From Clostridioides sp. ES-S-0010-02 (GTDB lineage: Bacteria > Bacillota > Clostridia > Peptostreptococcales > Peptostreptococcaceae): DNA of 64,000 bases. Within the stretch, counting starts at the first letter, position 1. Every line of letters starts with the position of its first letter. Location of the stretch: NCBI GenBank assembly GCA_020641055.1, contig CP067345.1, positions 3,093,317 through 3,157,316 of the forward strand, written 5' to 3'. The notes under the pieces were generated by a model. It did not search any database, was not told where the DNA came from, and saw only the letters and a list, made by a program, of their open reading frames with translations. Positions 25,323 through 33,675 of the stretch are shown here, in pieces. Both the position numbers and the translations under genes were made by a program.

Positions 25323-25580
25323 ATCTTTCTCCCTTTTATTTATTGACATCTAAAATTCAATTTATACCAAATAAACTAATAATTTATCCGTCTTATTTTT
25401 TATATATTCAACAAAAAATCAAACTTAAATTCTTCTTTTTAATGTTATATTACAGCCAAAAGTTTGTAAATATATGTTTTAAATTCTAACAGTATACATA
25501 TTATTTTATTGAATAACAGTCAACTTGGATAAGTCTCCTTCATATAATTTAAAGTGACCGTTAAAAAGGGGGGTGACTTA

Positions 25581-25973
25581 TTGGCAGCGCTTAAATCTTT
25601 TGAAAAACCCTTAACCCCTGAAGAAGAGATTGAGTATTTAACTAAATTTAAAATAGAAAATGATAAAAGTGCAAAAGATATATTGATTGAAAGAAACATG
25701 AGATTAGTAGCTTATATCGCAAAAAAATATAACAATTCGACAGAAGATCAAGATGATTTAATATCTATAGGTACAATAGGATTAATAAAAGCTATAGAAA
25801 CTTATAATATAGATAAAGGAACTCGATTGGCAACATACGCTTCTAGATGTATTGAAAATGAAATTTTAATGAATATCAGATCTAACAAAAAAAACAAATC
25901 ACAAGTATCTCTACAAGACCCTATCGGAACAGATAAAGAAGGTAATGAAATAAACACTATTCTTTATATGTAA
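25581..25973 (+). CDS. sigK: sigK, 5' part (interrupted by the skin element)
   Basis: N-terminal part of the late mother-cell sigma factor. It carries regions 1.2-2.4: [43 protein letters not shown] and [19 protein letters not shown] choose TTG 25581, which follows a strong GGGGGGTGA; an in-frame GTG at 25554 lies upstream of that Shine-Dalgarno. There is no pro-peptide, unlike B. subtilis pro-SigK. Sequence homologous to SigK stops at the att core (25942-25953), after which the frame runs 20 bases into the element and ends. Excision joins it in frame to 33407-33675. Confidence 0.95.
25942..25953 (+). other. Left attachment site core of the skin element
   Basis: GTAATGAAATAA occurs here and again at 33395-33406 as a direct repeat. 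Crossing over within it restores codons Gly-Asn-Glu-Ile-Ser-Leu-Leu-Asp of SigK without a frameshift. Confidence 0.92.
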
Positions 25974-25974
25974 T
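25954..25974 (+). repeat. Left inverted arm of the skin element
   Basis: These 21 bases directly inside the left core match the reverse complement of 33374-33394 at 18 positions, sharing the TCTTTATATGT block. They are probably recombinase-binding half-sites that flank the core in the excised circle. Confidence 0.75.
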
Positions 25975-26364
25975 TTTTTATTATCTATTATTTTGTTTTC
26001 ACCTATCTTAGGCTTTGGTTACAAAGTAGTATTTTCACCTCTTTTGAATGTCAAATATGGTTCTAAACTATGCACATGAGAATTTTAGATTCTACAATAA
26101 ATCCATAAAATATCATATAAATAAAGAATTATTAAAAAATTAGTATAAAGCTTTTTAAAAAACTAAGTGTATGAATTAAGATCTGTTATCTAGATACAAG
26201 TTATTGATAAATAAGTATTATAGATATAAAAAATATGAAAAAAGTATCTCAGGTTTAAAGAGATACTTTTTTGTAGTTAAATTATGATTTTTTTTAAAAC
26301 ATAACTGATGAATTTTAATATATATTTTTAATTTAAAAGTTGGTACATTAATATTTTAATGTCA
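25974..26364. other. Left-end non-coding region of the skin element
   Basis: About 390 bp. Apart from the inverted arm and the cysteine-synthase terminator at 26238-26272 I see no gene. It could be a remnant of deleted cargo, but nothing recognisable remains. Confidence 0.5.
26238..26272 (-). terminator. Terminator of the skin PLP-enzyme gene
   Basis: AAAAAAGTATCTC/GAGATACTTTTTT stem with a nine-base loop and U-tracts on both strands. It lies about 90 bases after the stop codon at 26365. Confidence 0.8.
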
Positions 26365-27327
26365 TTATAATTCTTCATATAAATCAGTACTCAAGTATTT
26401 TAAGCCACTATCATTAAGAGTAAGAACTATATTTTTACCTTTTTCTGAACTCTCTAATAATTTAATTGCTGCGCATACATTTGCTCCAGAAGAAAAACCT
26501 GCAAATACGCCTTCTAATTTAGCCAATTTTCTAGCTACATTAGTTGCTTCATCATCTGTTACCTGAATATAACCATCAATAAACTTTTTATCTACTAATG
26601 GTAAATCCATAGAATAACCTCCACCTTGTATTTTATGCCCTTGATCAGTTATTTCTTTGCCTGAATAAATTGCTGCTGTTGAAGGTTCAACCACATAGCA
26701 TTTAATAGAAGAATTGTGCTTTTTAAGTGTTTTCGAACAACCAGCAAAAGTACTACCACTTCCAAGGAAATCTACAAATACATCAATATTCCCATCTAAT
26801 TGTTTCCACATTTCTTCTGCTGTATAATATTCATGTGCATGATTACAAGCTTCTAAATTAAATTGATCTGCTCTAAATGCATTTCTTTCTTTTGCAATTT
26901 TTTGAGCCTCAACTTCTACAAGTGCTAAATCTTCTCCAGAAACTTGTCCATGAACTGAATTAGGCATTTGGTCTACAAGAACTACTTCTGCTCCTAAAGC
27001 TTTCATCATTCTTGCTCTTTCCATAGAATTTCCTTTTGACATGCATGCAATAAACTTATAACCCTTACATGCACAAGCTATTGCCAATCCTGTACCTGTA
27101 TTTCCACTTGTCAATTCTACAACTGCTTGTCCATGAACTAATAGCCCTGCATTTTCTGCTTCTGTAATCATTTGTAATGCTACACGGTCCTTTTTACTAA
27201 ATCCTGGATTTAAATACTCCATCTTTGCATAAATATTACCATCTACTCCAAATTCCTTCACTATTTTAGATAAGTGTAACATTGGAGTATTTCCTATTGC
27301 TTCTGTAACATTATTAAGTACATGCAT
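26365..27327 (-). CDS. Cysteine synthase-family PLP enzyme
   Basis: 320 aa from ATG 27327, seven bases after a GGGGG Shine-Dalgarno; a GTG at 27330 directly precedes it. Fold type II PLP enzyme of the CysK/CBS-like family. The PLP lysine is K46 in FSKKDR, the phosphate- and substrate-binding loop is TSGNTGTG at 73-80, there is a glycine/serine loop GSGSTFAG, and the C-terminal serine contacting the pyridine nitrogen is in LTLNDSGLKYLST. It probably makes cysteine from O-acetylserine or performs a related beta-replacement. It diverges from the XRE-cupin regulator and is an unusual cargo for a skin element. Confidence 0.85.
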   Translation of the reverse strand: MHVLNNVTEAIGNTPMLHLSKIVKEFGVDGNIYAKMEYLNPGFSKKDRVALQMITEAENAGLLVHGQAVVELTSGNTGTGLAIACACKGYKFIACMSKGNSMERARMMKALGAEVVLVDQMPNSVHGQVSGEDLALVEVEAQKIAKERNAFRADQFNLEACNHAHEYYTAEEMWKQLDGNIDVFVDFLGSGSTFAGCSKTLKKHNSSIKCYVVEPSTAAIYSGKEITDQGHKIQGGGYSMDLPLVDKKFIDGYIQVTDDEATNVARKLAKLEGVFAGFSSGANVCAAIKLLESSEKGKNIVLTLNDSGLKYLSTDLYEEL

Positions 27328-27377
27328 CACAATTCCCCCTTAATCGATTAACTATCATCTGTTGAAAAACAATTATT

Positions 27378-27395
27378 TATACATTATAATGTATA
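27378..27395. promoter_or_regulatory. 18-bp perfect palindrome in the cysK-like/regulator divergent promoter
   Basis: TATACATTATAATGTATA is perfectly symmetrical and lies about 50 bp from the PLP-enzyme start. It is a likely operator for the adjacent XRE-cupin regulator. Confidence 0.55.
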
Positions 27396-27429
27396 TTACG
27401 GATGTACAGTATATTTAACATTTAATCTA

Positions 27430-27483
27430 TTATGCATTCATAAATTAGAAATAATGTTAAATAAATTATACATTCGTAAATTA
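27430..27483. repeat. Pair of direct operator-like repeats
   Basis: TTATGCATTCATAAATTA (27430-27447) and TTATACATTCGTAAATTA (27466-27483) differ at two bases and are 36 bp apart start to start. They lie 35-90 bp upstream of the regulator start and share TATRCATT with the palindrome at 27378. Confidence 0.6.
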
Positions 27484-27517
27484 TATTTGTCAATAATTTA
27501 CAATTTAAGGAGTACAT

Positions 27518-28069
27518 ATGAGTATTAATACTATTATTGCAAAAAATTTAAATCGATTACGTAATGAACGTAATTTAAGTTTAGGTCAACTTGCTGAATT
27601 ATCTGGTGTAAGTAAAGTAATGCTATCACAAATTGAAAAGGGTGATTCTAATCCTACAGTAAACACAATTTGGAAGATTGCAAATGGACTAAATGTACCA
27701 TACACTGCAATACTTGACCAACCACAAGATAAAACTTTTATTGTTTCAAAATCTGACATAGATGTTCAAATTTCAGAAAGTGAAGACTATCGTCTTTATT
27801 GTTATTATCCTAATACACCAACTAGAAATTTTGAATTATTTCAAATGGAATTAGAGGAAGGTCACAGTTATACATCTATTGGTCATTCTGAAAAATCTCA
27901 AGAATATATTATGATTCTAGAAGGTCAGTTAGGATTAGAAGTAAATGATTCTGTTTATCAACTTAAAGAAAATGACTCTATCTGTTTTTCAGCCGAATCA
28001 ACACATACATACCATAATCAAGGAAAAAAAACATTGAAAACAGTGATAATAAATTACTATCCAGTTTAA
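27518..28069 (+). CDS. XRE-family regulator with C-terminal cupin domain
   Basis: 183 aa. A helix-turn-helix covers residues 9-62 (LNRLRNERNLSLGQLAELSG, then SQIEKGDSNPTVNTIWKIA), typical of the SutR/PuuR-like group. Residues 105-180 form a cupin barrel (EGHSYTSIGHSEKSQEYIMILEGQLG) that probably binds a small metabolite. The Shine-Dalgarno AAGGAG precedes ATG 27518. It is transcribed divergently from the cysteine-synthase-like gene and most likely controls it; regulators of this kind often govern sulfur or amino-acid genes. Confidence 0.88.
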   Translation: MSINTIIAKNLNRLRNERNLSLGQLAELSGVSKVMLSQIEKGDSNPTVNTIWKIANGLNVPYTAILDQPQDKTFIVSKSDIDVQISESEDYRLYCYYPNTPTRNFELFQMELEEGHSYTSIGHSEKSQEYIMILEGQLGLEVNDSVYQLKENDSICFSAESTHTYHNQGKKTLKTVIINYYPV

Positions 28070-28371
28070 AGATATTGATTCAAAATTAGGATGATGATTT
28101 TCTCATATAAAAAGGTGAATCTTCATAGATATGATTTATCTTTTTTGTTTTCTTACACTCTTTTTCATAATTTATTGATGATGTTACATAAATATTATTG
28201 CTACCTAACTTCTAAAACCTTGAACTCCAATGAACTATTTTTTAACTGAATAACTAAGGCTCTAATTATTAGGTATTATATACTTTACAAAAATGTTATC
28301 AAAACTCTATGAAAATACTTGTCCAATTTCTTTACAGCGAAGTGCTAAGTATTAGCAACTTCTCTATTTTT
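28070..28371. other. Region between the regulator and the small skin protein
   Basis: About 300 bp, with two + strand hairpins (28112-28148 and 28339-28372) and otherwise featureless A/T-rich sequence. Confidence 0.5.
28112..28148 (+). terminator. Terminator of the XRE-cupin regulator
   Basis: AAGGTGAATC/GATTTATCTT stem with G-U pairs, followed by TTTTTTG. It lies 42 bases after the stop codon. Confidence 0.7.
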
Positions 28372-28372
28372 T
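28339..28372 (+). terminator. Second + strand terminator, facing the small skin gene
   Basis: GAAGTGCTAA/TTAGCAACTTC stem with a three-base loop, followed by a run of seven T on the + strand. No + strand gene lies directly before it; it may insulate the minus-strand gene at 28372-28590. Confidence 0.65.
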
Positions 28373-28590
28373 TAACTTTCAACTGTCTCAGCTTTTTTCA
28401 TTGCTATATTAATAGCTATTTCTTTAGCTACAGCATCAAGTTCATTCCATCTTCTTTTGTTTTCTTCATCAGAGATACGTGGATATATTATATAAACTTC
28501 TGTATTTTGATTAGCTATGATTTTCTCATCATATTCTATATCTTTTTCAGCATCATATTTAAATGGTTTAAATTGTTGTAGTATTTTCAC
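28372..28590 (-). CDS. Small skin-element protein (possibly CD1234-like)
   Basis: 72 aa, starting at a GTG with an AAGGGGTGATATT Shine-Dalgarno. It is charged, lacks membrane segments and cysteines, and contains a helical second half (RWNELDAVAKEIAINIAMKKA). Its place in the skin element, beside the toxin-antitoxin module, matches that of the small CD1234 protein of strain 630, which I recall as a sporulation-controlled factor needed for skin excision. That identity is an inference from position and size, not from alignment. It would make sense as a recombination directionality factor. Confidence 0.6.
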   Translation of the reverse strand: MKILQQFKPFKYDAEKDIEYDEKIIANQNTEVYIIYPRISDEENKRRWNELDAVAKEIAINIAMKKAETVES

Positions 28591-28724
28591 AATATCACCC
28601 CTTATTATAAAATATGAGGCTATAAACTTGTCTTATACTTAATATTTTAAGATGTATTTAATTTTAAAATTCTATATTAAAAAATTGAATATAATAAAAT
28701 CAATGTAAAGTGTAGTTCATAAAT

Positions 28725-28752
28725 AAAAATAGAGTAGTTTAACCTACTCTAT
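28725..28752 (-). terminator. Terminator of the type I toxin mRNA
   Basis: Minus-strand ATAGAGTAG/CTACTCTAT hairpin followed by TTTTTAT. It lies about 120 bases beyond the toxin stop codon. Confidence 0.7.
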
Positions 28753-28786
28753 CCTTCTCTAATTAATAAATATAAAATTATTATTT

Positions 28787-28816
28787 TTGAATATTTATAC
28801 CAACTTGTGATATAAT
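28787..28816 (+). promoter_or_regulatory. Promoter of the antitoxin RNA
   Basis: TTGAAT (28787-28792), an 18-base spacer, TATAAT (28811-28816). The predicted start is near 28823, at the beginning of the left copy of an inverted repeat. Confidence 0.7.
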
Positions 28817-28822
28817 AAAAGC

Positions 28823-28949
28823 AAGAAGAACTACAATCTATTTAGCAGTAGAGTGGAGTTCATCATAAATGATATTATTTGAATTTATGGAATTTGATTT
28901 TTAAATCAAACTCCCAACCACTCTTAGTGCCAGCTTTGAGTGGTTTTTT
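28823..28949 (+). ncRNA. Antitoxin antisense RNA (RCd type) of the type I module
   Basis: Predicted transcript of about 127 nt from the promoter at 28787-28816 to the terminator at 28916-28949. It is complementary to the 3' part of the toxin gene and to the toxin mRNA tail. Convergent overlap with a terminator inside the toxin coding region matches the RCd antitoxins described for C. difficile. Boundaries are predicted, not mapped. Confidence 0.8.
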
Positions 28950-29033
28950 ACATTTTCTAAATAACTTACTTATTAAGTAAACTATATAGCTAGCTAGAAT
29001 ACTAGCTAATATGCTCAGTAAAAAATTATCCAT
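28875..29033 (-). CDS. Type I toxin, small membrane protein (52 aa)
   Basis: ATG at 29033, preceded by the strong GGAGGGAGGTGATT Shine-Dalgarno, TAA at 28875-28877. The product begins MDNFLLSILASILASYIVYL, a single membrane helix, followed by the basic KLFRKCKKPLKAG region and ends WEFDLKIKFHKFK. This architecture and wording match the C. difficile type I toxins exemplified by CD2517.1, CD0956.2 and CD2907.1, which damage membrane function when the antisense RNA is lost. A related module is, from memory, reported in the strain 630 skin element. It would stabilise the element against loss. Confidence 0.9.
   Translation of the reverse strand: MDNFLLSILASILASYIVYLISKLFRKCKKPLKAGTKSGWEFDLKIKFHKFK
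28916..28949 (+). terminator. Antitoxin RNA terminator inside the toxin gene
   Basis: AACCACTC/GAGTGGTT stem, 14-base loop, followed by TTTT. It overlaps toxin codons for the KKPLKAGTKSGW segment, so the coding sequence and the terminator constrain each other. Confidence 0.85.
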
Positions 29034-29129
29034 ACATAATCACCTCCCTCCATTTTTGTTGGGAGGATAATCTTTTGTTTGTATGAACTCCACTCTATAA
29101 ATTGTAGATTACATCTTCTTGCTAAAAAT

Positions 29130-29135
29130 ATTATA
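29130..29135 (-). promoter_or_regulatory. -10 box of the toxin promoter
   Basis: TATAAT on the minus strand, with a poor -35 (TTAGAT-like) about 17 bases upstream. Transcription would begin near 29123, at the right inverted-repeat arm. Confidence 0.55.
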
Positions 29136-29187
29136 ACATAATTTGGTAATCTATCTAATAAAAAATGTACACTTAGATATTCTAATT

Positions 29188-30615
29188 TTAGTTATAAATT
29201 TTTCCAGTTTTTATATCTATAAAAAACCAGCCAAAAGTTCCATTGCTATTTTTTGAATTGATTTTAACAGCATAAACATTACCACTATATATATCATCTC
29301 TAAAATCTATCATATCAACTATTAAGTTATTGATATTGATTTTATGTCTCTTCGCACATTCTTTTAATGCTATCTGTTTTGCTTGTTCCTCTGTTATACT
29401 TTCTTTATTTTTATAATCATCAGGATTACATACTTTCATATTACCATTAACATCATATGTATAAACTTTACTCATATCATTTTTTTCTACACAATATCTA
29501 ACATCACCCTCTGCGCCTTGTTTGATATAAGCAAATGCATAGTACTCTTTTCCTGAAAAAGCAAAGTTTTTATCTAGTATAAATATTAAATCTTCATCTT
29601 CTGAATAATTAGGTTCATAGTAAAACTTATTTACACCTAACAATTTTTTTACTGCATTAGCAGCATCTTCTACTTTATATTGTCTTCCAGTATTAGAATC
29701 TCCTATATTTTTTGTCACATTTAAACACTGTTGTAATATACTATCACTCAAATTTCCTATAGCAGTTAATTTAGTTGTACTTTTCAATACACTTTTATTA
29801 CTATCATTATCAACTAACACAATAGCATTATTTTTAGCAATAGTAGAGCCAACAAGCGCATACACTAAATCAGTACCACTTGCTATATAAAATTCTTTTA
29901 CTCCACTATAAAATTTATTTATTATTTTTTCATTAGTATCATATCTATCAGTCCCGCCCAATCTAGTTGAATTAGTATCATTAACTAGTTTGTCATTCAT
30001 TGATGAATTGCCACCTATTACATAACTTTCCACACCAGTTGTATTAAATGATACACTTTTTCCATCAGTTAATACTATAGCTGCTTTATCTCTAACAGCT
30101 ACAGGTGCAGCACTCATTGCATCAGGTTCTCCTTTAAAAGCATTAGTCAATATTACTTTATTTACTTTGTTAATTGAATTTATTTCTTTTGCAACATCAT
30201 AGCTTGTCTTAATTCTATCACTACCTTGAAGTCTTTTAATCTCTATCCCTTTATCTTTTAGAACAGTTTCTGTTGCTTTATCAATAGAGTTTTCTCCTCC
30301 GATTATATATACTTTTTTTGCCTTTTCTACTCTTTTAAGTGTAGCATTTGGTATACTATTTTTCTTAGTTAAAAGAATAGGTGCATTTGTACTACCTGCA
30401 AGCCCACTTGCAGATAATCCATCTGCCATTGTACTATCTGCATTAATCAGTATAGCTGTTGTATAGTTTTGCTTATCTGCGATAAGTCCAGCAGTTTCAT
30501 ATTTATCTACACCTTTAATTGTATCAATCTTATCAAGTGCATTTGCAGATATAGGGCAACTAGCAATAAACATAGATAAAGATAACCCTATTGTTAATAA
30601 TTTTTTAATTTTCAT
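29188..30615 (-). CDS. cwp26: Cell-wall protein with CWB2 repeats and PepSY-like C-terminus
   Basis: 475 aa. A signal peptide (MKIKKLLTIGLSLSMFIASC, cleavage near ANA) is followed by three CWB2 domains over residues about 35-310, with markers KVYIIGGENSID, SYVIGGNSSMN and ASGTDLVYAL. These anchor the protein to the polysaccharide PSII beneath the S-layer. The last 150 residues look PepSY-like (ITEEQAKQIALKECAKR, FIDIKTGKIYN), often protease-inhibitory. Location in the skin element fits Cwp26 of strain 630, but the symbol is from memory. It lies downstream of the toxin module, on the same strand as the lipoprotein gene. Confidence 0.85.
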   Translation of the reverse strand: MKIKKLLTIGLSLSMFIASCPISANALDKIDTIKGVDKYETAGLIADKQNYTTAILINADSTMADGLSASGLAGSTNAPILLTKKNSIPNATLKRVEKAKKVYIIGGENSIDKATETVLKDKGIEIKRLQGSDRIKTSYDVAKEINSINKVNKVILTNAFKGEPDAMSAAPVAVRDKAAIVLTDGKSVSFNTTGVESYVIGGNSSMNDKLVNDTNSTRLGGTDRYDTNEKIINKFYSGVKEFYIASGTDLVYALVGSTIAKNNAIVLVDNDSNKSVLKSTTKLTAIGNLSDSILQQCLNVTKNIGDSNTGRQYKVEDAANAVKKLLGVNKFYYEPNYSEDEDLIFILDKNFAFSGKEYYAFAYIKQGAEGDVRYCVEKNDMSKVYTYDVNGNMKVCNPDDYKNKESITEEQAKQIALKECAKRHKININNLIVDMIDFRDDIYSGNVYAVKINSKNSNGTFGWFFIDIKTGKIYN

Positions 30616-30857
30616 AATATCTTCCCCTCCTAAATATTTTCACTTAAATTATATAACACTTTATAGAAAAAAGTTGTCATAAATTAGGAAAATTATTACT
30701 TAATATAAATATTAACTAAATTAACATTGATTATTATACATCCTTTTCATGTAGCTGAATTAATATAAAATAGTTATATAGTCTTACTAAAAATAGACTA
30801 AAAATCTATCCTCTTAAATTAGCTAATACTTTCTATATATTTTTAGATATAAATTAT

Positions 30858-31670
30858 CTATTCAGTTATACTATAATTGTTTGCAGAATAATGAGGCGTC
30901 CACTCTATTTTTTCAAAATCCTTATCTGTATTAAACTCAAGTCTAACTTTTTGACCTTTCTTCCAAGTTCCATTTACTGATGTTGATGTTTGTGTCTCAA
31001 TTATTACACCATCTTTGTCTATTAAATTTATATCTAAGTAAAAGTCTTGAAGATCTAAATCACCTGTATTTTCTACAGTAGCTTGATAAGTCTTCCAATC
31101 ATATTCATCTTTTACTTTTTCAAATTTTATACCTTTTACCATAGCATCAATTTTTTCTTTTGAATCGTTTTCTTCATTTACAACTTGTGCATTGTCTTTT
31201 AATACCTTAAACTCTTTTTCATCTACTTTCAAACCAAACTTGTCAACTAAAGTCAACAATATTGTACTTCTCTCATTATAAGGCTTTTCCCAAAGTTCTG
31301 AAAACTTCAATGGGTCGTTTGAATAATATTTTATGGCTTCCTTTGAATCTTCAAGAGCTTTTATATAATCTTTTGCCAATTTACCAAGTTCTGGGCTGTC
31401 AAACTCAGCATCTTTATATTTTGATACAGCATCCATTTCTGCTTCTACAAATTTTTCATAAGCTTCATTCTGCTCTAAGTTTAATGTTCCAGCTTCTTCT
31501 TTAGATGCCAAATCCCATCTTTTTTTTAAACCTTTTCCTAAATCCTCGATAAATTGCTTGTCCTTACCTTTGCTTTCATCTTTTGAATCTCCCCCACTAG
31601 AGCATGCTACCACAGAAACTGATAACATAATTATCATAAACAAGCCTAGTATTTTTTTGAAATTACACAT
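30858..31670 (-). CDS. Skin-element lipoprotein with FxLYD-like domain
   Basis: 270 aa. Lipobox VVAC at about residues 20-23 (ILGLFMIIMLSVSVVACSSG), so it is anchored to the outer face of the membrane. A helical region spans 40-150. The C-terminal 85 residues (DLDLQDFYLDINLIDKDGVI, TWKKGQKVRLEF) resemble FxLYD beta-sandwiches. The start follows AAGGGGGAATT. Its function is unknown. It faces away from the recombinase gene with 180 bp between them. Confidence 0.8.
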   Translation of the reverse strand: MCNFKKILGLFMIIMLSVSVVACSSGGDSKDESKGKDKQFIEDLGKGLKKRWDLASKEEAGTLNLEQNEAYEKFVEAEMDAVSKYKDAEFDSPELGKLAKDYIKALEDSKEAIKYYSNDPLKFSELWEKPYNERSTILLTLVDKFGLKVDEKEFKVLKDNAQVVNEENDSKEKIDAMVKGIKFEKVKDEYDWKTYQATVENTGDLDLQDFYLDINLIDKDGVIIETQTSTSVNGTWKKGQKVRLEFNTDKDFEKIEWTPHYSANNYSITE

Positions 31671-31850
31671 ATAATTCCCCCTTAAAAATTGTTTTCAATT
31701 GAATTATACTATATTTACCTACTGAATGCTGTCGATTCATGCGAAATTTTCATACTATTTTTACAATTATATCAAGTTTTAATTATCATAAATTATACCC
31801 TTATATACTTAATATAATATATAATATATTCAAGGAGTGTGATTATTTAT

Positions 31851-33368
31851 ATGAGTGTTGCTATATACTTAAGAAAATCTCGTGCTGATGAAGAGGCAGA
31901 AAAACAAGGAGAATTTGAAACTTTAAGTAGACATAAATCAACCCTACTAAAACTAGCAAAAGAACAAAACTTGGATGTATCTGAGATAAAAGAAGAGCTA
32001 GTTTCTGGTGAAAGTATAATACATAGACCTAAAATGATTGAACTCCTAAAGGAAGTTGAAGAAAATAAATACGATTCCGTCTTAGTTATGGACTTAGACA
32101 GACTTGGTCGTGGGGATATGAAAGACCAAGGTATAATATTAGAAACTTTTAAAGAAAGTAAAACCAAAATTATAACACCTAGAAAAACATATGACCTAAC
32201 AGATGAATTTGATGAAGAATATTCAGAATTTGAAGCCTTTATGGCAAGAAAAGAGCTAAAACTTATATCTAGACGTATGCAAAGAGGAAGAATAAAATCA
32301 GTTGAAGAAGGTAATTTCATAGGAACTTCTGCTCCATTTGGATATGATGCTGTAACAACAGGCAGAAAAGAAAGAATACTTATACCAAATAATGATGCTG
32401 ATGTAGTTAGGACTATCTTTGACTTATATATTAATGAGGATATGGGTTGTAGTAAAATATCAAAATATCTAAATAACTTGGGCATTAAAACTGCTACAGG
32501 TGCTAACTGGTATAACTCTGCAATCACAAATATAATAAAAAATAAAGTTTATTGTGGATATATTCAATGGCAAAAAAAGGACTATAAAAAATCTAAAAAT
32601 CCAAACAAAATAAAAACAGTTAAGCTAAGACCTAAAGATGAATGGATTGAGGCAAAAGGAAAGCATGAACCTTTAATAAGTGAATTAACATGGAAAAAGG
32701 CTCAAACTATACTCAAAAAAAATGGTCACATCAGCTATGGTAATCAAATAAAAAATCCACTTGCAGGAATAATAATTTGCAAAAACTGTGGTAGACCATT
32801 AGTACATAGACCATATGCAGACCACGACTATATAATTTGTTATCATCCTGGTTGTAATAAAAGTTCTCGCTTTGAATTTATTGAAGCTGCCATTTTAAAA
32901 TCTTTGGAAGACACTGTAAAAAAATATCAATTAAAAGCATCTGATATAGACTTAGATAAAAATAATAAAGACAGCAATATAGAATTTCAAAAGCGAGTAT
33001 TAAAAAGCTTAGAAACTGAATTAAAAGAATTGAGTAAGCAAAAAAATAAGTTATATGATTTATTGGAGCGAGGAATATATGATGAAGATACATTTATTGA
33101 AAGGTCTAATAATATAAGTTCAAGAACTGAGGAAATTAAAGATTCAATCAAGACAGTAAAAAATAAATTAAATACTGTTAAAAAAGATAATGCTAAAATG
33201 ATAGAAGATATTAAAACTGTACTATCACTTTACCACGATTCAGATTTACTTGGAAAAAATAAACTCCTAAAATCTGTAATTGATAAAGCAGTTTATTACA
33301 AATCTAAAGAACAAAAACTAGATTCTTTTGAATTAATGGTTCATTTGAAATTACATGAAGACCAGTAA
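31851..33368 (+). CDS. Large serine recombinase of the skin element
   Basis: 505 aa from ATG 31851; a GTG at 31839 would start inside the AAGGAG region. The N-terminal resolvase domain carries the catalytic serine in VAIYLRKSRADEE (about residue 10) and arginines in LVMDLDRLGRGDMKDQG. The recombinase domain and the zinc-ribbon (IICKNCGRPLVHRP, ICYHPGCNKSSR) follow, then a long coiled coil near residues 370-460. Large serine integrases need a directionality factor for excision. It ends 26 bp before the right att core and is the product expected to rejoin sigK. Confidence 0.95.
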   Translation: MSVAIYLRKSRADEEAEKQGEFETLSRHKSTLLKLAKEQNLDVSEIKEELVSGESIIHRPKMIELLKEVEENKYDSVLVMDLDRLGRGDMKDQGIILETFKESKTKIITPRKTYDLTDEFDEEYSEFEAFMARKELKLISRRMQRGRIKSVEEGNFIGTSAPFGYDAVTTGRKERILIPNNDADVVRTIFDLYINEDMGCSKISKYLNNLGIKTATGANWYNSAITNIIKNKVYCGYIQWQKKDYKKSKNPNKIKTVKLRPKDEWIEAKGKHEPLISELTWKKAQTILKKNGHISYGNQIKNPLAGIIICKNCGRPLVHRPYADHDYIICYHPGCNKSSRFEFIEAAILKSLEDTVKKYQLKASDIDLDKNNKDSNIEFQKRVLKSLETELKELSKQKNKLYDLLERGIYDEDTFIERSNNISSRTEEIKDSIKTVKNKLNTVKKDNAKMIEDIKTVLSLYHDSDLLGKNKLLKSVIDKAVYYKSKEQKLDSFELMVHLKLHEDQ

Positions 33369-33373
33369 TACCA

Positions 33374-33394
33374 ATAACATATAAAGAGTAGTAT
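33374..33394 (-). repeat. Right inverted arm of the skin element
   Basis: Reverse complement matches 25954-25974 at 18 of 21 positions (shared TCTTTATATGT). It abuts the right att core. Confidence 0.75.
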
Positions 33395-33406
33395 GTAATG
33401 AAATAA
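33395..33406 (+). other. Right attachment site core of the skin element
   Basis: GTAATGAAATAA, identical to 25942-25953. Immediately afterwards the SigK reading frame resumes (GTCTTTTGGATATACTTGG). Confidence 0.92.
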
Positions 33407-33675
33407 GTCTTTTGGATATACTTGGTACAGATGTCAACTATGTTCTTGACGAAGTTGAGTTAAAAGTTCAAGTTGGAAAACTATATGAACAACTTAACAA
33501 AATCCTTACTCCTAGAGAAAGAGAAATTGTCCAGTTAAGATACGGGTTAACTCCTTATGGGTATAAAACTCAAAGAGAAATAGCACAAAGACTTGATATC
33601 TCTAGATCATATGTGTCCAGAATCGAAAAAAAAGCTCTTAAAAAACTAGAAAAAGAGCTTGTTCAAGAAAATTAA
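33407..33675 (+). CDS. sigK: sigK, 3' part
   Basis: C-terminal part of SigK with regions 3 and 4: LLDILGTDVNYVLDEVELKV, TPREREIVQLRYGL and the -35-recognition helix-turn-helix TQREIAQRLDISRSYVSRIE. Together with 25581-25953, excision gives 642 nt: 213 codons plus stop, with the junction codon AGT (Ser). Standing alone it lacks a proper start and is not expected to be functional. Confidence 0.95.

Follow-up and report, generated by a model that had tools for sequence, protein, structure and literature searches.

In the sequenced chromosome of the strain studied here the sigK gene is cut, which raises the question of what kind of element lies between the two halves, whether it can leave again and what it carries. 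Haraldsen and Sonenshein reportedly described such an element, skinCd, in C. difficile 630. Our analysis of the window, the 64,000-nucleotide stretch of chromosome around the locus, indicates that an element of the skinCd family very probably splits sigK in a Clostridioides species, is excised in sporulation to restore the gene, and here carries the only copy of a cysK-like/XRE-cupin gene pair. Excision in the window strain itself and the role of the pair are predictions from sequence.

The interrupted sigK gene and its recombination module

The interruption lies between two copies of a 12-bp core.

25581..25953, + strand: sigK 5' fragment, left core included (ORF 25554-25973)
25942..25953, + strand: attL 12-bp core GTAATGAAATAA, from the core scan
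25954..25971, + strand: element-side attL arm, 16/18 complementary to the attR arm
33377..33394, + strand: element-side attR arm, from the arm comparison
33395..33406, + strand: attR 12-bp core, from the core scan
33395..33675, + strand: sigK 3' fragment, from frame joining

The window has exactly two copies of the core, each on the + strand, at a core-to-core distance of 7453 bp, which gives a 7.45-kb element. A 12-bp repeat alone is weak evidence, because the 8.2-kb neighbourhood has 26 different 12-mers in two copies each and the core pattern with at most one mismatch occurs six times against 3.65 expected, a count reached by 15 of 100 shuffles. The repeat is significant because of its position, as joining the halves there gives an in-frame SigK (213 aa from the TTG at 25581, or 222 aa from the GTG at 25554) like that of uncut relatives. 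The 213-residue product shares 207, 208 and 206 identical residues with the uncut sigK products of genomes G001, G003 and G007, respectively. In these three genes the core is present with the same left neighbour, and at every attL, attR and uncut sigK found by a scan tolerating two mismatches it is mismatch-free. A chance repeat is therefore rejected, since the join point is the same place as in the relatives' uncut gene. The preliminary description had located the split at a core at 25942 and 33395, with a joined SigK of 213 codons in frame and AGT as the junction codon; all of this holds, the last because the joined junction reads GGT AAT GAA ATA AGT.

The 16/18 complementarity of the arms was reached by none of 20,000 random pairs of 18-mers from the element. 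The published description of skinCd of 630, with which we compared the arms, likewise has a 12-bp motif flanked by inverted repeats in both att sites at sigK, and it includes the two recombination proteins whose counterparts we find here (PMC5025042).

31851..33368, + strand: large serine recombinase of the CD1231 type, 505 aa (Pfam Resolvase and Recombinase; PHROG 95 integrase; serine at position 10)
28372..28590, - strand: 72-aa homologue of the excision factor (RDF) CD1234, from homologues and length (PHROG 9018, function unknown)
28591..28638, - strand: conserved block upstream of the RDF gene, with a sigmaE-like CATATTTTA (10 sequences aligned; promoter read by eye)

Ser10 is described as the catalytic residue of CD1231, and CD1234 as 72 aa long (PMC5025042). 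The window recombinase is 96.4% identical to the copies on three IMG/VR skin-type contigs. Its putative partner, likened to CD1234 of 630 by length, place and skin-type homologues, shares 85-90% identity with 14 relatives from contigs of skins or skin-type prophages. The block upstream of the RDF gene holds a sigmaE-like -10 and a KRTAACARK-like site, which is imperfect in the window and its sister genome G005, reading TATAATAAG and thus one base off, and reads TATAACAAG in the 8 other aligned sequences. The SpoIIID site of 630 (TGTAACAAT, ~46 bp upstream of the transcription start) was found in none of the 10 aligned RDF upstream stretches.

During sporulation, the 72-aa directionality factor would be made in the mother cell from the sigmaE-like promoter and would partner the serine recombinase of the element, so that attL and attR are recombined at the 12-bp core. 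By analogy with 630 and from the junctions in relatives, sigK would then be restored in frame and the element would leave as an attP circle. The forespore would keep the element, as is established for 630, and the element would thus be inherited. Evidence for excision comes from assembly-level junctions in relatives only. In the draft assembly of genome G006, attR lies on contig C332 and the joined sigK at the end of contig C220, and the two contigs overlap by exactly 127 bp, starting at core base 1; on the attL side the contig ends before attL, and no other G006 contig overlaps its end. The presence of joined and split junctions in one relative's draft assembly is new here.

It is very improbable that the window element is a dead relic that no longer excises, with sigK a pseudogene in this strain. 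Such a reading could draw on the imperfect SpoIIID-type site upstream of the RDF gene and on the fact that excision in this strain is a sequence-based prediction, but both recombination genes have open frames with signs of purifying selection (window-G005 dN/dS 0.064 for the recombinase and 0.123 for the RDF), both halves of sigK are intact and join in frame, and the arms and core are retained.

Host species, cargo and comparison with known skins

The flank of the window shares 95.9% identity with that of G005, 87.9% with that of G001 and 88.0% with that of IMG/VR contig L038. The flanks of the latter two are 99.6% identical to each other, and we take both for C. difficile. With a flank about 88% identical to theirs, the host strain is probably a close relative rather than C. 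difficile sensu stricto, contrary to the earlier assignment to C. difficile. The remainder of the element is cargo, carried on a backbone that resembles an eroded prophage.

26365..27330, - strand: cysK-like PLP enzyme, 321 aa (Pfam PALP; below the NCBIfam cysK cut-off; best PDB match beta-cyanoalanine synthase 6pmu)
27518..28069, + strand: XRE-cupin regulator, 183 aa (HTH_3 and Cupin_2), divergent partner of the cysK-like gene
28875..29033, - strand: type I toxin gene, 52 aa (NCBIfam CD_typeI_toxin 93.6 bits, cut-off 60), flanked by inverted repeats by eye
29188..30615, - strand: Cwp26-like cell-wall-binding protein (three CWB2 stretches, PepSY), 92.8% to the annotated Cwp26 of NZ_CP149754.1
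30858..31670, - strand: lipoprotein-like FxLYD-domain protein, cargo (NCBIfam FxLYD domain above cut-off)

No phage structural genes were recognised between the cores, either in the ORF list or by Pfam and NCBIfam on seven proteins, so that the packaging, head and tail genes of an intact temperate phage were not recognised inside the element; PHROGs was run on two element proteins only, the recombinase and the 72-aa protein. Rfam returned nothing at gathering scores on the window.

The skin of 630 is 14 kb long (PMC4430133) and, like the window element, contains a type I toxin gene (PMC6563280). The window element differs from it in being about half its size, in carrying the cysK-like/XRE-cupin pair and in probably belonging to another species; unlike in 630, neither vanZ1 (by Pfam) nor a CRISPR array was found in it. 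The skinCd of the RT078/RT033 lineages is likewise a compact skin at sigK with the recombinase, but is described as 10 kb with 12 ORFs, vanZ1 and a CRISPR element (PMC9050547). The skin of Bacillus subtilis is excised from sigK in the mother cell by a serine recombinase, SpoIVCA, as predicted for the window element, and also carries type I toxin genes (PMC6563280), but it has another insertion site and orientation, an independent origin and a SigK with a pro-sequence (PMC5025042). The preliminary description thus rightly reported an element about half the size of that of 630, free of phage structural genes and with a cargo unlike that known from C. difficile, whereas its proposal of a minimal skin is not supported. 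We compared four complete skins (6.4-8.1 kb) and one incomplete one, alongside larger prophages with the same recombination module. Core-to-core lengths in relatives are 6.44 kb (6441 bp, G004), 7.20 kb (7201 bp, G005) and 8.10 kb, and all five skins share an even smaller set of parts, namely the recombinase, the excision factor, a type I toxin gene and the att sites, to which the comparison of skins and prophages narrows what is conserved. By its sequence, the window element belongs to the known skinCd family as a slim member, not a minimal one.

Probable sigK prophages and the history of the recombinase

A far larger phage-like circle with the same recombination parts, from C. difficile, is new here. 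NZ_CP149754.1, a circular 57-kb C. difficile 'plasmid', holds the recombinase (96.6% to the window), the excision factor (84.7%), Cwp26, an attP and myovirus structural genes, and its portal-to-capsid stretch shares 96.1% identity over 5.9 kb with phiC2. The attP has arms 18/18 complementary around the same core. In one IMG/VR contig a similar prophage has its attR at sigK, in the order PBP, sigK 3' half, attR, recombinase, RDF, terminase, portal, capsid and tail. Of 50,697 phage records none matched the RDF, and the best recombinase among them was 52.9% identical. An attP pattern scan of viral contigs found none; attP was seen in one record only, NZ_CP149754.1. Three viral contigs matched the left sigK-core junction, but the genes they carry there are unrelated, and we judged this to be a chance codon match.

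The 57-kb circle was deposited as a plasmid and is a single record, without the strain's chromosome in the collections used, which would suit an assembly chimera or an ordinary plasmid rather than an excised sigK prophage. We consider this improbable, since its attP is exactly right-end, core and left-end, a search of the circle turned up no sigK sequence, and the separate IMG/VR contig places the sigK 3' half, attR, recombinase and RDF before phage structural genes. The combination of attP and a structural cassette on one circle suggests that a phage still uses the sigK developmental switch. We give even odds to the wider proposal that a phiC2-like myovirus of ~57 kb still uses the skinCd recombinase, RDF and att sites to lysogenise sigK in C. 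difficile, that sigK prophages of this type have eroded to 6-8 kb in related Clostridioides species, and that the one in the window became the sole home of the pair, so that its permanent loss would cost the cell.

Exchange of the recombinase end of the skin between species is likely, though not proven, from distances over the same six rows for recombinase and flank (1000 bootstraps). The L038 recombinase is closer to that of the window (6.5% different) than to those of G002, G004 and G006 (12.3-12.8%) in 1000/1000 bootstraps, whereas its flank differs by 11.7% from the window and by 6.4-7.5% from these three, being closer to the window in 0/1000. For the 72-aa RDF gene L038 is closer to the window in 628/1000, which favours neither arrangement. 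The case rests on distances and therefore on roughly equal rates, as the unrooted recombinase and flank trees do not contradict each other; a sister relation of window and G005 in the recombinase is neither supported (373/1000 bootstraps) nor rejected (p-AU 0.18). A first tree test (p-AU 0.0009 on the flank) was dropped, as the skin-less rows G003 and G007 could cause the rejection.

The cysK-like/XRE-cupin pair across the genus

Each of the eight genus genomes has one close orthologue of the pair. In six it lies outside the skin; in the window genome and G005 it is inside the skin only and missing from the other locus. The pair in a skin as the cell's only copy is new here and had escaped the preliminary description. 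Its dN/dS between window and G005 is 0.082 and 0.098, and its tree separates these two from the rest, the same split as in the flank tree. As the sole copy is inside the skin, it follows from the sequence that permanent loss of the skin would also delete the pair; that this might stabilise the element is a guess. Some C. difficile strains keep the skin, and others are described as having none (PMC5025042). Where the skin holds the sole copy of a conserved pair, its loss should be rarer and should carry a cost if the cell is not given the pair in trans.

Since the genus divides only once between the two states, a single move in either direction fits, and the pair may have left an ancestral skin for the chromosome in the six remaining species instead of entering the skin here. 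A close cysK-like relative in just one of 63 further family genomes would suit that order of events, which we nevertheless regard as unlikely: in this one outgroup, G064 (65% identity), a comparable divergent pair stands next to selA/selB-looking genes (by eye), away from sigK, and the enzyme of the pair was not found in 12 IMG/VR skin-type stretches, the 57-kb circle, the G002 and G004 elements or the examined part of the G006 element. Nor was a cysK-like protein found in the viral contigs. Separately, a lipoprotein gene at the pair-less locus of G005 is 63% identical to one in the G005 skin, a hint of exchange between the two loci that is too old to read.

The sigK element and its control region

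The preliminary description had reported a 12-bp core, GTAATGAAATAA, at both ends of the element, and two exact copies are indeed present on the + strand of the window, at 25942 and 33395. Repeated 12-mers are not rare, with 26 different ones present twice in the 8.2-kb neighbourhood, so the significance of this repeat comes from the join, which restores SigK as claimed: the flanks joined at the core encode 213 aa from a TTG at 25581. The joined protein is identical at 207/213, 208/213 and 206/213 residues to the products of the uncut sigK genes of three other Clostridioides genomes, G001, G003 and G007, which have the same core and the same left neighbour as the window. The features located here are as follows.

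25942, + strand: first copy of the core
26365..27330, - strand: cysK-like gene
27518..28069, + strand: XRE-cupin regulator gene
28372-28590: 72-aa ORF, homologue of the directionality factor CD1234 (RDF)
33395, + strand: second copy of the core

The other genes between the cores encode a 52-aa type I toxin (an NCBIfam equivalog, score over the cut-off), a Cwp26-like protein, an FxLYD lipoprotein and a large serine recombinase. According to the available text of PMC5025042, in strain 630 the recombinase CD1231 is constitutively made, the 72-aa directionality factor CD1234 is expressed under sigmaE and SpoIIID, excision requires both, and recombination takes place inside the 12-bp motifs. The 630 skin also contains the type I pair CD1233.1-SQ808 (PMC6563280, in the part available). 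Each of these protein parts has a counterpart in the window element. The element is a genuine skin of a known type, and its excision in the window strain, with mother-cell timing, would be expected. The RDF gene is preceded by a block of ~48 bp that contains CATATTTTA and is conserved in 10/10 sequences aligned; farther upstream the sequences diverge between groups. The SpoIIID motif reported for 630 is not seen upstream of the RDF gene in these 10 sequences, and a site that matches the KRTAACARK of PMC5025042 in the 8 others, where it reads TATAACAAG, is TATAATAAG in the window and in genome G005. The missing motif and the altered site speak against the 630 control applying here unchanged.

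Skins across the genus and the host species

Both sigK halves are present in 8/8 genus genomes; the gene is split in the window's genome (G000), G005, G002 and G004, uncut in G001, G003 and G007, and found in both states in G006, whose element is incomplete.

Core-to-core sizes of the skin elements
window: 7453 bp
G005: 7201 bp
G002: 8104 bp
G004: 6441 bp

RDF homologues occur in 5/71 family genomes, the same five that have a skin, and all five skins have the recombinase, the RDF and the type I toxin gene in common, the remaining genes being variable. Because of these sizes and shared parts, the window element is compact, as proposed, but not minimal. Contig C220 of G006 passes directly from the 5' half of sigK into the 3' half, and contig C332 from the element through the core into the 3' half. 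Their overlap is exactly 127 bp, starting at core base 1, the pattern expected in the assembly graph of DNA with both sigK states; the attL side is not represented, C332 ending before reaching it.

The host had been taken as C. difficile, which is not borne out by the right-hand flanking sequence, made up of the sigK 3' half and PBP: here the window is 87.9% identical to G001, 88.0% to L038, a stretch of an IMG/VR contig, and 95.9% to G005, and G001 and L038 share 99.6% identity. The genome collection holds one genome per species, and the window's species would therefore be other than those of G001-G007. G001 and L038 are presumably C. difficile sensu stricto, partly because the 50-aa toxin of L038 matches the length reported for CD1233.1 (PMC6563280, part available) and also because C. 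difficile is the likely identity of an IMG isolate that carries a skin of this type.

A prophage at sigK and a probable excised form

The contig that includes L038 and L135, IMG/VR 2879523602_000004 (33,550 bp), starts with PBP, the sigK 3' half, attR, the recombinase (96.4%), a toxin, repressor-type genes and the RDF, followed by replication, terminase, portal, head and tail genes. PHROGs supported the assignments of all eight proteins run against it (large terminase, portal, minor head, scaffold, major head, sheath, tail protein and tape measure), the other gene names being assigned by eye. Of 12 RDF-bearing IMG/VR contigs, four were inspected and all four have tail-type genes by eye, the PHROGs test covering 2879523602_000004 only; among the 12, this contig alone extends to the sigK 3' half and none contains the 5' half. 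Four weak 5'-half matches in these 12 records (31-32%) are other sigma-like proteins.

Among 72,556 plasmid records, the RDF (84.7%) occurs in one alone, NZ_CP149754.1, a circular record of 57,443 bp named C. difficile. This record also carries the recombinase (96.6%), Cwp26, a partial toxin match and an attP in which 18-bp arms, 18/18 complementary, surround the same core, and has no sigK match. Its annotation lists terminase, portal, scaffold, capsid, sheath, tail tube, tape measure, baseplate, holin, amidase and vanZ1, the last a gene that C. difficile skins are known to carry (PMC9050547 and PMC11983580, in the parts available). Over 5.9 kb its portal-capsid stretch matches phiC2 at 96.1% identity, and none of the phage records spans more than 37% of the 18.9 kb compared. 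Filed as a plasmid, this record (L144, L145) has the appearance of a sigK prophage that has excised as a circle and carries attP, vanZ1, Cwp26 and phiC2-like structural genes, and the 57-kb circle may be a live phage.

The C. difficile skin has been described as degenerate, with the recombinase alone retained (PMC4430133, part available), and a prophage integrated in sigK has been published for Alicyclobacillus (PMC13141910, part available). We found no report of a sigK prophage with structural genes in C. difficile, in a search with most subscription journals and preprints outside its coverage; none appears in the available parts of PMC11222575 and PMC12122855, and neither "skin" nor "sigK" occurs in PMC10993401 or PMC10778935. 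Nor did we find a report of the skin's link to larger prophages or of the twist in its cargo, which is not proof of novelty.

Recombinase, flank and RDF distances were compared on the same six rows and bootstrapped. L038 is nearer to the window than to G002/G004/G006 in 1000/1000 bootstraps for the recombinase, 0/1000 for the flank and an undecided 628/1000 for the RDF gene. The unrooted trees show no conflict, and therefore the mosaic case rests on distances, which suggest that the recombinase end of the skin has probably passed between species.

Elsewhere in the window's genome (L071 1047-10935; G000:C1:2252046-2261934), a segment of ~8.8 kb splits an NMT1-type substrate-binding protein gene, present as an uncut 349-aa gene in G001 and G007. 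The segment, a second gene-splitting element, has a paralogous serine recombinase (53-56% to that of the skin) at its end, a very short common core with inverted arms at its ends (by eye), and no relative of the skin RDF. The paralogue occurs in 6/8 genus genomes, and the split was checked in three of these six (G000, G005 and G003).

The cysK-like and XRE-cupin gene pair

Each gene of the divergent pair has one close orthologue in 8/8 genus genomes, at 93-97% aa identity to the window for the cysK-like gene (next match 36-37%) and 90-97% for XRE-cupin (next 40%). Six genomes have the pair in one setting, with the right neighbourhood common to 6/6 and a left-hand amidohydrolase in the 4/4 whose stretch extends that far; G000 and G005 keep both neighbours of that locus and lack the pair there. 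The shared stretch of ~1.84 kb comprises the two genes and short flanks. Since the pair tree, with 100/100 support, places the window and G005 apart from the six remaining genomes, the same split as in the flank tree, the pair looks inherited rather than newly acquired. Outside the genus, a close relative of the enzyme is found in 1/63 family genomes, where it adjoins a divergent XRE-type gene and is not at sigK. The move was likely into the skin, though this is not proven.

The pair is under purifying selection, with window-G005 dN/dS of 0.082 for the cysK-like gene and 0.098 for XRE-cupin. Three comparisons between outside copies give 0.033-0.058 and 0.075-0.107, respectively, and because the former range lies below 0.082, selection on the enzyme may be slightly weaker when its gene is in the skin. 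We speculate that the pair could stabilise the skin. The closest solved relatives of the enzyme are beta-cyanoalanine synthases, then cysteine synthases; as its score falls under the NCBIfam cysK cut-off, any reaction assigned to it would be putative.

In G001, a CRISPR-like array of 18 repeat units at ~66-bp spacing adjoins the chromosomal home of the pair (L106 5602-6770). In G005, the locus that lost the pair has a lipoprotein gene (L129 8721-9542) that shares 63% identity with one of the cargo genes in the G005 skin.
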